Assembly (NCBI GenBank): GCA_020073305.1
Contig: JAIQFK010000007.1
Coordinates: 186,001-250,000 of the forward strand
Length of the DNA: 64,000 nucleotides
DNA from: Terriglobia bacterium
GTDB taxonomy: Bacteria > Acidobacteriota > Terriglobia > Bryobacterales > Bryobacteraceae
Direction: 5' to 3'
Shown here: positions 6,522 through 19,635 of the stretch, one piece after another
Position numbering within the stretch: the stretch's first letter is position 1
Layout of the letters: every line of letters starts with the position of its first letter
Notes under the pieces: model-generated
Databases searched by the model: none
What the model saw: only the letters and a program-made list of their open reading frames with translations
What the model was told of the DNA's origin: nothing
Position numbers and translations under genes: made by a program

Positions 6522-6618
6522 TTCGCTTTCTCTTCGCCTACTATAAAAGGAAATCGGCTGGTTTTCAAGTCAGTTGTAGGATTGACTTCGACGGCAGTTG
6601 CGCTCATGATTCCTTTCA

Positions 6619-8775
6619 ATGCGAACTTTAGTGCTCTGCGCGCTATTCGCTGCTGCAGTGCGGGCGGAAACTGTGGACGTGTGCAGTCCCGCGCCTGCCG
6701 TCAAGGAAAGTCTGGACCGGTTGCCGCGGCAGACACCGGCGGAGACAGGCTGGCAATTTCACGAAAAAAGCGGTGCTGCAATTCGGGCGCTGCTCAACCA
6801 GTATCCCGACGATATATTCGTGCACCGCGCCAACATCCGCTCAACCGACTGGAAGGATAAGGACAAGTTCATCGCTGAATACAAGGCACGCCATGAGCAG
6901 CACCCGGACAGCGCGCCTTGGTCCTATCTCTATGGAATGACTCTCGTGGGCAGGCAATCGAAGGACGCCATCAGGCTGTTCACCGGCGCTCTCGAAAAAG
7001 ATCCGAAGTTTCCCTGGCCCCATCTGCAGCTTGTGGATATCTATAACTCAGAAGTGTTCTCAAACAAGGAGGAGAGTACCAAGCACCTGAAGGCTTTCCT
7101 GGATGCTTGCCCAGCGTCATTTCAGGGATATGAGCCGCTGACGCGCGTTGATGACAAGGACCTTCTTCGAACGTATGACGCGAGGCTGCGCGCTCTGATC
7201 GCGAGCCGCAATGATGCGGACGCTATCGGCGCTTACCGGACACTCTGGTCGCTCGAATTCAAAGCGCATCCGCCATCCGAGTATGAAGGCTTGCGCAAGC
7301 AGGTTAGCCAGGACCTCGAACGTATCCGCGGTCTGAGCCTTCAGGACAAGCGGGAGTGGTACGAGGCACTCGAGAGCGGCTACAAGCTAGTGAACGATCA
7401 GAAGCAGTCGGACTGGGCGCAGGATCAGGCCGAGATCCGCTTTCCTTCGCCCTGGTCTACACCGGCGATGTCGAAATGGCTAAAAGAACACCACTCCCCG
7501 GCTGACGATGCTGCAGTGGACGCGAAGCGAGCCTATTACCGGGATCTGCTCGAGCAAACCACCCAATGGGTCAAGGACTGCCCGCATAACACGGCTATCA
7601 GGAGATTGCGGCTGAGGGCGCTCGAGCATCTTGATGACGCCTCCGCGACGGATGTGCAAGCGGCGGTGGATCAGATGATGAAGGTGGCCACGGACAATGC
7701 TGGGCCCGACGGCCCGGAATCCGCATATTACTTCAACGCCGCCGGGACTCTTTCAAAGAAACATCTTCAGCCGGAGCAGGTTGTCGAGCTTGCCCGGGAG
7801 GGTCTAGCGCAGTGGGAAATAGAATCGAAGGAACCCTTTGATGACCTCTACGCTACGAAGGAAAACGTGGAGGGGTACAAATTCTATATCGGCTACTCGC
7901 GTATTGAAGGAATGCAATCGGAGATCGCCGGCTATCTGCAACTGAAGCAGCCGGAGAAAGCGCAGATCGAGCTGGCGCAAATGGACGAGCGGTTGCAGGA
8001 GCTGAAGTCGCTGGCGGGCGATAAGCAGGATCGTAAGAAGGACTGGTCCGTTCAAGTCGCAGCCTATTGGGGTCTGATGGCGCGCGCGGCAGAACTCCAG
8101 GGGCGCAAGCTGGATGCCATGGCGTTCTACGAAAATGCCTTGCTCACGCGCCTGGACGCCCAGAAGAAGCCCGAAACGGGTGTCAAGGACGACTTGGCGG
8201 ACAACGCGCATCAGCTTTGGGCCAGGCTGGGTGGCACCGACGACGGCTGGAAGATCTGGTATGGGCGGCGCGCTGACGCGCTAGCCAAGCTCGCCACTCT
8301 AACCTGGGAAGACGCAAATCAGCCGCTTCCGCCCTTCGAGATCGCCGACCTTAAAGGCAAAACCTGGGGCCTGGCTTCCCTTCGGGGGAAAGTGACGTTC
8401 CTCAACTTCTGGGCGGAATGGTGAAGCTTTTGCCGCGAGGAGTTGCCTCGCCTGCAGAAGTTGATGGATGAATACAAGAATCGTACCGACGTGCAGTTCA
8501 TTACTTTGAACATGGATGAGAACCCTGGGGTGATCGAGCCCTTCTTCAAGGAGCACCAGTTCTCATTCACGGTGCTCCCGGCGTACACCTACGTGACCGA
8601 GACACTCAAAGTGCAAGGTATCCCGCAGAATTGGATTGTCGACGGGAATGCGGTCGTGCGGCTGAAGGGTATCGGGTACGATTCGACCGAGAAGTGGGAA
8701 ACGGGCATGCGAGACGCCATTGAGAAAGTCAAAACGGCGGAGCCGGCTCCTGCTGCTGGAAGTTCTTCAAGATAA
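6619..8775 (+). CDS. TPR/TlpA-type thioredoxin selenoprotein; TGA at 8422-8424 read as selenocysteine (Sec602)
   Basis: Read through its internal TGA this gene gives 718 residues. It has a signal peptide (MRTLVLCALFAAAVRAE) and about 540 residues of helical, TPR-like sequence. A TlpA/AhpC-TSA thioredoxin domain begins near residue 567 (LPPFEIADLKGKTW). The text before the TGA is TFLNFWAEW and after it SFCREELPRL, so the TGA falls on the first residue of the catalytic motif, giving U602-S-F-C605. The same frame then continues with normal thioredoxin content (VQFITLNMDEN, the cis-proline of QGIPQNWIVD near 669) to a stop at 8773-8775. A hairpin at 8427-8460 fits a bacterial SECIS. A random nonsense mutation would be unlikely to hit this codon and leave the rest intact. 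Expected role: periplasmic thiol/disulfide redox. Which cell process it serves is unknown. Confidence 0.87.
8427..8460 (+). promoter_or_regulatory. Predicted bacterial SECIS hairpin for the thioredoxin selenoprotein
   Basis: The hairpin starts 2 bases after the TGA. The lower stem is CTTTTGC (8427-8433) against GCAGAAG (8454-8460), 7 bp with one G-U pair. A 1x2 internal loop follows, then an upper 6-bp perfect stem GCGAGG (8435-8440) against CCTCGC (8446-8451). The apical loop AGTTG is at 8441-8445. Sixteen bases separate the TGA from the loop and the loop carries G at its second position. As I recall the bacterial SECIS rule, this meets it: a G in the first two loop bases and roughly 16-37 bases of spacing. 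Confidence 0.8.
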
Positions 8776-18111: not shown

Positions 18112-18843
18112 ATGCCAGCGCGCACCATCCGCATCGGAATCCTCGGTGACTTCGACCCCGACTATCACTCGCACTGCGCCACGAATGCTTCCCTTCAGCA
18201 CGCGGCCAAGGCTCTGGGGCGCGAAGTCGAATCCGCCTGGGTGCCCACGCCATCGCTCGAGCGCCCGCAGGTTGGGGAGGTGCTTTCAGGCTATGACGGC
18301 CTGTGGGCCTCACCGGGCAGCCCCTACCGCAGTATGCGCGGCATGCTGGCCGGTATTGTGTTCGCGCGCGCGAGCGGCCGGCCGTTTGTCGCGACTTGAG
18401 GCGGATTTCAACATACTCTGTTAGAGTATGCCCGCAACGTGATGGGGATCGCTGACGCCGATTCGGCTGAGCATGATACGGTTTCGCAGAACCTCATCAT
18501 TGCGCCTGTGGCGTGTCCGGTTCCGAGCCGCCGGGAGGGTGCCCCGAAGCTTTCCGGCGCCTGCAAACTACGGATCAAACCTCATTGCCGCCTGGCGGAA
18601 ATCTACGGGGCCACGGAAATCGAAGAAGAGTACTTCTGCAACTTCGAGATGAATCCCGAATACTACCAGCGTTTCGAGGATGCCGGGCTGCTTCCGGTGG
18701 CATTTGGTCAAAACGGCGAACTGAGGGCGGTCGAGCTGCCGGACCGCTTTTTCGTTGCGACGTTATATCAGCCGCAACTGTCGTCGAACGAACAGAGGCC
18801 ACACCCGGTGATCGTGGCGTTCCTCGTGGCGGCCGGCCGTTGA
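18112..18843 (+). CDS. CTP synthase C-terminal-region-related selenoprotein (GATase-1 fold); TGA at 18397-18399 read as Sec96
   Basis: Read through the TGA this gives 243 residues (MPARTIRIGILGDFDPDY onward). The N-terminal half lacks the synthase domain of CTP synthase and goes straight into a class I glutamine-amidotransferase fold (LSGYDGLWASPGSPYRS). At the nucleophile elbow the sequence is PFVAT-TGA-GGFQHTLLEYARNV, where related proteins have TCGGFQH. The TGA therefore sits on the nucleophile cysteine, and the frame continues with conserved content (ADSAEHDTVS, FFVATLYQPQL, PHPVIVAFL). A SECIS-like hairpin follows at 18412-18430. The positions matching the catalytic His and Glu of CTP synthase (F-H-P-E-F) appear as Y-Q-P-Q-L, so glutaminase chemistry is doubtful. 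The SDR gene begins 21 bases after the stop. Confidence 0.87.
18412..18430 (+). promoter_or_regulatory. Predicted bacterial SECIS hairpin for the GATase-like selenoprotein
   Basis: A perfect 7-bp stem CATACTC (18412-18418) with GAGTATG (18424-18430) closes a 5-base loop TGTTA (18419-18423). A lower stem GCGG (18401-18404) with CCGC (18432-18435) can extend it across an internal loop. The TGA-to-loop distance is 19 bases and G is the second loop base, as required for SelB-type recognition. The loop core GTT matches that of the hairpin at 8427-8460. Confidence 0.8.
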
Positions 18844-18864: not shown

Positions 18865-19635
18865 GTGGACCATCCGCTGGAATCGAAAGTCGCGCTGGTC
18901 ACGGGTGCGAGCAAGGGTGTGGGCAAGGGAATTGCCGTGGAACTGGCGCGCCGGGGGGCGAACGTCGCGGTCAACTATAACACGGACCGCGCGGGGGCCG
19001 AGACGACGGTGGCGGAGATACACCGCATAGGCCGGGAGGCAATGGCGATCCAGGCGAACGTCGCGGTGGCGGCGGACGTGGACCGCATGTTCGCGCACTT
19101 CCTCGAGAAATTCCCGCGGCTCGACATTCTGGTAAACAACGCCGGCGTGCAAACCTGGAAGCCGCTGCTGGATTTAACCGAACCGGAATGGGACCGCACC
19201 ATCGACACCAACCTGAAAGGCTGCTTCCTGTGCACCCAGCGCGGCGCGCGCCACATGTGCGAGCGCGGCGGCGGACGCATCATCAACATCGGGTCGGGCT
19301 GCAATAAAGTGGCGTTTCCGAACCTGGCGGATTACACCGCGAGCAAGGGGGGCGTCGAAATGTTTACGAAGTGTGCGGCCGTGGAGCTGGGGAAATACCG
19401 GATCACAGTGAACTGCGTGGCGCCAGGGGCGATCGAGATCGAGCGGACGAAATTGGAAGCGGGCGATTACGCCGCCACTTGGGCGAAGCTGACACCGCTT
19501 GGCCGCGTGGGTGAGCCGTTGGATGTAGGGCGAGCGGTAGTGTTTCTGGCGAGCGAGGCAGCGGAATTCATCACGGGACAAACCATCTGGGTGGATGGCG
19601 GGCTGTTTAGCAAGCCAGCATGGCCGTATTCGTAG
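18865..19635 (+). CDS. SDR family NAD(P)-dependent oxidoreductase (FabG/glucose dehydrogenase-like)
   Basis: A 256-residue classical short-chain dehydrogenase starting with GTG at 18865. The cofactor loop [10 protein letters not shown] is at about residues 13-22, NNAGVQ near 90, the catalytic serine in NIGSGCNK near 144, and the Tyr-Lys pair in YTASKGG near 157. The C-terminal GQTIWVDGG is the usual end motif. The gene is 21 bases downstream of the selenoprotein and probably in the same transcript. The substrate cannot be assigned; 3-oxoacyl reductase or sugar dehydrogenase are the common options. Confidence 0.87.

Follow-up and report, generated by a model that had tools for sequence, protein, structure and literature searches.

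A CTP synthase C-terminal region-related gene of a Terriglobia bacterium very probably encodes a selenoprotein and lacks the triad histidine of class I glutaminases

The window analysed here, a stretch of 64,000 nucleotides from a Terriglobia bacterium, contains a gene in which an internal TGA, codon 96, is almost certainly read as selenocysteine, as judged by comparison with its relatives. The encoded stand-alone protein of 243 amino acids is predicted to fold like the glutaminase (GATase) domain of CTP synthase. We consider it rather likely that it is a histidine-less GATase-fold selenoprotein with a selenol/thiol centre (Sec96, Cys135 and Cys176) and not a class I glutaminase.

The family is already published as a selenoprotein, and our gene adds no new kind. 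The deep-Sep paper reports the Sec form in Desulfosediminicola ganghwensis, and TGA homologues in further organisms that use Sec, under the name 'glutamine amidotransferase (COG0504, PyrG)' (PMC12013277), and a 2026 review has the selenoprotein family entered in a table (PMC13188914). Together with the family model NF004836, these two reports bear out the statement of an earlier sequence-only reading of this DNA that proteins related to the C-terminal region of CTP synthase have been annotated as possible selenoproteins. The words 'triad' and 'histidine' are absent from the main text of both, and in the open-licence literature searched we did not find the loss of the triad histidine and the two extra cysteines of NF004836 in print; the same literature yielded nothing on a novel selenoprotein in Acidobacteria, on PRK06186, on selenocysteine at a nucleophile elbow, or on amidotransferase pseudoenzymes with catalytic histidine, and nothing relevant, as judged by title and abstract, on CTP synthase paralogues. 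The present analysis adds members from Acidobacteriota, the conservation of a SECIS-like hairpin and switching between Sec and Cys to a family for which the literature names the Sec form in a single species.

The gene and its family

The features of the locus are the following:

18112..18843, plus strand: coding sequence of a CTP synthase C-terminal region-related protein, very probably a selenoprotein (243 aa with Sec96; NF004836 257.2 bits, E 9e-77; AlphaFold pLDDT 91.4)
18397..18399, plus strand: UGA codon, very probably Sec96, equivalent of Cys379 of E. coli CTP synthase (88 Cys and 10 TGA in 98 relatives)
18412..18430, plus strand: bacterial SECIS-like hairpin, starting 12 nt after the TGA (8/8 pairs in 10/10 TGA genes and 0/88 Cys genes; synonymous constraint)
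18514..18516, plus strand: Cys135 codon, no Cys in CTP synthase (Cys in 98/98)
18637..18639, plus strand: Cys176 codon, corresponding to His469 in E. coli CTP synthase (Cys in 98/98)
18769..18777, plus strand: Gln-Pro-Gln, codons 220-222, in place of the CTP synthase triad His-Pro-Glu (His in 0/98)
18865..19635, plus strand: short-chain dehydrogenase (SDR), 21 nt downstream of the selenoprotein coding sequence

The earlier description of a single continuous frame from 18112 to 18843 with an internal TGA at 18397-18399 proved correct when the sequence was read again. The frame starts with the ATG at 18112, codon 96 is TGA in the context PFVAT-TGA-GGFQHTLLEYARNV, and the next in-frame stop is the TGA at 18841-18843, which is taken as the stop of the coding sequence.

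For the profile comparison, C was written in place of U96, and the final TGA was entered as an additional C. This query matched NF004836 (CTP synthase C-terminal region-related (seleno)protein) over positions 1-227 of the 228 in the profile, with a score 2.8 bits under the NCBI naming cut-off of 260 bits; the search of the genome gave 249.2 bits, and one of the TGA relatives (L031) reached 303.3 bits. The Pfam GATase match was just at the cut-off (22.8 bits). The protein aligns with positions 288-525 of the PyrG model only and has no N-terminal synthase domain in its 243 amino acids; a separate PyrG match is found elsewhere in the genome (C38:203543, a 554-aa open frame). The AlphaFold model was built with 21 sequences. 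Among solved structures it comes nearest to 3nva, the CTP synthase glutaminase domain (Z 32.3, rmsd 2.0, 233 aligned); CTP synthase heads the rankings of both Foldseek and VIA-align. DJ-1 is not among the 50 fold matches listed, from which no exclusion of a likeness to DJ-1 follows.

Cysteine and TGA at codon 96

The 98 relatives come from three sources: 13 loci from a profile search, 80 from a scan of a genome collection and five further loci with the TGA motif. The profile search covered 396 genomes of the phylum and gave 13 matches of at least 249 bits, clear of PyrG at 175 bits or less, and three of these (our own gene counted) carry TGA. In the collection scan, which used peptide patterns including the stretches around Cys176 and the lost histidine, TGA was present in two of the best 80 of 218 loci. 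Among 399 genomes of the class, the TGA-motif pattern matched 7; five of these were new and entered the set through the TGA motif itself. The 80 scan loci include many close Enterobacterales, and mutual identity is below 70% for only 32 of 93 loci. Among the best 80 of the 218 loci, the named relatives closest to our gene come from Acidobacteria gp3 and Bryobacterales MAGs, and Cys forms are present in Pseudomonas and Enterobacterales.

A scoring of Cys/TGA pairs against these relatives had been proposed with the original reading, and it gave cysteine in 88 and TGA in 10 at codon 96, with no other residue (n=98). None of the homologues stops at this codon; the match continues to query residue 234 at least in 98/98 relatives. 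Within the taxonomic family of our bacterium, the scan of the class found the exact TGA motif only in the own genome, with a pattern that would miss variants. The Sec form looks patchy within this family.

One genome of the collection (G051) has a Cys homologue within a longer frame of about 435 codons (L153, 4511-5818), which is perhaps an extended open frame only, or perhaps a fusion.

The tree of the relatives contains 41 rows (32 representatives below 70% identity, five further TGA rows and four PyrG), and at least three changes are needed to place Sec on it. A Cys form, L033, is the sister of the Sec form L143 and is nested in a Sec clade with support 100/97, a placement which reads as a Sec/Cys switch. 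The NF004836 clade is split from the four PyrG rows with support 100/100, and our gene lies within the family clade.

The coding sequence is under constraint before and after the TGA. In 5/5 pairs compared, pN was smaller than pS upstream as well as downstream; for our gene and L054 the values were pS 0.66 and pN 0.32 upstream and pS 0.76 and pN 0.28 downstream. In addition, codons 101-107 are nearly frozen at synonymous level in the 10 TGA genes, where 203 of 242 comparisons (84%) show the identical synonymous codon vs 42% elsewhere, and no other window is as high (0/202). For 10 hand-picked Acidobacteriota Cys genes, the same codons gave 78/178 (44%), and 38 of 192 windows were as high.

These observations bear on the reading that the gene is a pseudogene with a nonsense mutation, or two short genes split at the TGA. 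Such a reading would agree with TGA being a stop in translation table 11 and with the frame of 134 aa that starts at the GTG at 18439. Against it stand the recurrence of TGA at this codon in 10 genes, the constraint on both sides, the confinement of hairpin and codon freezing to the TGA genes and the fact that both halves form one domain. We regard the pseudogene and split-gene readings as very improbable and have rejected them on the grounds of recurrent TGA, two-sided constraint, hairpin and single domain.

The hairpin downstream of the TGA

A perfect 7-bp hairpin with the loop TGTTA had been noticed 3' of the TGA, and we find it at 18412-18430, with the arms CATACTC (18412-18418) and GAGTATG (18424-18430). 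It can be described as 7 bp with the loop TGTTA, or as 8 bp with the loop GTT when the T-A pair is counted. Bacterial SECIS elements are characterised by a G early in the loop and a short distance from the TGA. Across all 10 TGA genes, an 8-bp stem with a loop GTT or GGT lies 12 nt from the TGA.

Judged singly, our hairpin is mildly surprising and not convincing, and its weight comes from the conservation across relatives. When the codons of the gene were reshuffled synonymously (n=20000, with an assumed third-base G+C weight of 0.62), all eight pairs in the hairpin register appeared in 232 cases and any stem of at least 8 in 3049. An automatic search through the entire window returned 8 read-through frames that combine a stem of at least 7 with an early loop G, our frame included. 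In the hairpin register of the 88 Cys genes, the commonest count was four of eight pairs (30 genes); three genes get to seven and none to eight, and 9/88 have some stem of at least 8 elsewhere in the zone. One pair shows a compensatory change, which was equalled by 44 of 500 shuffles, and the pure covariation support for the hairpin is weak. Rfam gave no match for the window at the gathering threshold, nor for 18390-18460 at E up to 5, and thus the hairpin call rests on the comparison among relatives.

Selenocysteine machinery

The genome has the components for decoding UGA as selenocysteine, the absence of which had been named as a reason to give up the Sec reading. SelB (359 bits), SelA (508 bits) and SelD (368 bits) are all above cut-off, and a tRNA-Sec with anticodon TCA was found at 76.5 bits by a model that is poorly selective (5/14 control genomes were above cut-off, and a second match in the own genome has 48 bits). 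SelA was above cut-off in 10/10 TGA genomes vs 4/10 of the Cys genomes tested from the phylum. The SelD match itself (L134, C36:17276-18199, 368 bits) has one in-frame TGA. Sec-containing SelD is known.

A genome-wide change of the code, with TGA standing for another residue, would be a further way to read through codon 96. We found no support for it; the same gene ends in TGA, and tRNA-Sec, SelA, SelB and SelD are present. This terminal TGA and the Sec machinery led us to reject a code change, which we think next to impossible. The Sec96 reading is supported by the Cys/TGA pairs, the common SECIS-like hairpin, the frozen synonymous codons, the Sec machinery and the tree.

Active-site residues and proposed function

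Sec96 maps to Cys379 of E. coli CTP synthase, as expected from the earlier placement of the TGA at the GATase elbow, so that selenocysteine would stand in place of the nucleophile cysteine; His515 corresponds to Gln220 and Glu517 to Gln222. The triad histidine is present in 0/98 relatives vs 17/17 PyrG. This count includes the 80 scan loci, for which the lost histidine and Cys176 were part of the search patterns; the 13 profile-search matches, which were not chosen by those patterns, have His in 0/13, Cys135 in 13/13 and Cys176 in 13/13. The equivalent of Glu517 is Glu in 81/98; all 10 Sec forms and six Cys forms have Gln there instead. In addition, Gly351-Gly352-Phe353-Gly354 of the E. coli enzyme are replaced by Pro (92/98), Gly or Ala (95), Ser (98) and Pro (98).

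Other positions of the family are invariant. Cys135, Cys176 and Arg205 are found in 98/98 each and differ from PyrG, and His21 is found in 96/98; the residues common to the family are C135, C176, R205 and SPY70-72. At Cys135 the alignment to PyrG is unsure, with Glu or Asp (Glu in E. coli) or a gap in the 17 PyrG sequences. Two residues of the glutamine pocket are kept in 98/98 each, namely the equivalents of Glu403 (Glu120) and of Gln383, and the Arg470 equivalent is Arg in 12/98. We take Glu403 and Arg470 of CTP synthase to contact the alpha groups of glutamine. In published work, Arg470 is placed near GTP. The kept Glu403 and Gln383 equivalents suggest that the pocket may still accept an amino-acid-like ligand.

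Since no relative compared has kept the general-base histidine and the Sec members carry Gln in place of the Glu, the protein is very likely no working class I glutaminase, and its chemistry is probably different, perhaps redox. A chemistry other than glutamine hydrolysis had earlier been concluded from the selenocysteine at the elbow; this does not follow from Sec alone, and what backs the conclusion is the histidine count of 0/98 and the Gln in the 10 Sec members.

In the mechanism that we propose, UGA 96 would be decoded as selenocysteine, directed by the downstream hairpin and SelA, SelB, SelC and SelD, in a 243-aa stand-alone protein with the predicted CTP synthase glutaminase fold. The elbow Cys or Sec would then act as a selenol/thiol centre with the family-specific Cys135 and Cys176. 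In a redox version, Sec would attack an oxidised or electrophilic small molecule and one of the cysteines would resolve the selenenylsulfide; in an alternative version, Sec96, Cys135 and Cys176 would form a metal-binding trio. We tentatively favour thiol/selenol redox for the Sec96 centre, a step that we infer, at somewhat less than even confidence. With similar reserve, all NF004836 proteins might be histidine-less GATase-fold enzymes with a three-chalcogen centre (Cys/Sec96, Cys135 and Cys176) and act on an amino-acid-like ligand by a non-hydrolytic redox or metal chemistry. The shared centre of residues 96, 135 and 176 is putative, and the weakest step of the reading is that Cys/Sec96 would cooperate with at least one of the two extra cysteines in such a chemistry.

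Glu517 in 81/98 together with the Glu403 and Gln383 equivalents in 98/98 might be left over from glutamine binding. The same residues, the elbow Cys/Sec and a fold like that of the GATase domain in CTP synthase speak for a glutamine amidotransferase after all, in which Sec would be a better nucleophile and another residue would replace the histidine, and which would serve some partner; this is also the name used in both publications (PMC12013277, PMC13188914). The missing triad histidine (0/98), the absence of the Glu from all 10 Sec members, the replaced Gly351-Gly354 segment and an Arg at the Arg470 position in only 12/98 argue against it, and we consider an amidotransferase improbable. The name is hard to reconcile with the lost catalytic histidine; thiol/selenol chemistry is indicated.

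It might also be that the Cys or Sec binds a ligand covalently, either a gamma-glutamyl-like or an electrophilic one, and that the resulting acyl- or alkyl-enzyme is not hydrolysed fast; the protein would then be a sensor, carrier or transferase and not a redox enzyme. Pocket residues that are kept while the general base is lost would agree with this, and the fold match to a SpuA H221N mutant with glutamyl-thioester, so described in its entry title (7d50, Z 21.2), suggests that a histidine-less enzyme of this fold can hold a thioester. An adduct leaves the two extra cysteines unexplained, and Sec is usually retained for redox or metal roles; we think this reading unlikely, though less so than an amidotransferase. 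For the selenol/thiol centre, a test of function is possible without selenium because Cys forms occur in Pseudomonas and Enterobacterales.

Gene neighbourhood

The SDR gene downstream is possibly co-transcribed with the selenoprotein gene. Among 16 loci compared, an SDR also lies 3' of the gene in L054 (82% identical), and otherwise a 33% relative is present in L058 on the opposite strand; a strong neighbour shared with our neighbourhood was found in L054 only. The neighbours give no functional hint beyond this one SDR common to one relative. In 9/32 loci, all from Enterobacterales and our window not included, there are two recurrent neighbours (for example in L060, L062 and L065, which are Cys forms), and a reading of their sequences, not a family search, suggests an MFS transporter and an AraC-type regulator.

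Elsewhere in the window, a long frame on the plus strand (6610-8772) with TGA at 8422-8424 ends in an AhpC-TSA/Redoxin domain, has WUSFC in place of the thioredoxin WCxxC and is followed by a 6-bp stem with a loop starting 16 nt downstream. It is a probable further selenoprotein and is probably the one that the sequence-only reading had counted as the first.

Comparison with known systems

The closest known system is NF004836/PRK06186, with which the protein shares the near-full profile match, the position in the family clade and the Sec form in print. It differs in scoring 2.8 bits below the naming cut-off and in being found in Acidobacteriota; Gln at the position of the triad Glu is present in our gene and the other nine TGA genes.

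In DJ-1/PfpI and other proteins of GATase-like fold, the elbow cysteine serves other chemistry. The likeness to DJ-1/PfpI comes from this general description, whereas the sequence of our protein is close to CTP synthase. PuuD and SpuA, gamma-glutamyl hydrolases, have the GATase-like fold in stand-alone chains of 237-252 residues (Z 21.7 each), but they are only 14-18% identical, and according to the title of 7d50, His221 of SpuA had been mutated to trap the glutamyl-thioester, whereas the histidine is naturally absent here.

With the glutaminase domain of PyrG, the protein shares the fold, the elbow position and the equivalents of Gln383 and Glu403. Unlike PyrG, it has no synthase domain, no triad His and no triad Glu, its oxyanion segment is altered, and it carries two extra cysteines and very probably a selenocysteine as the nucleophile.
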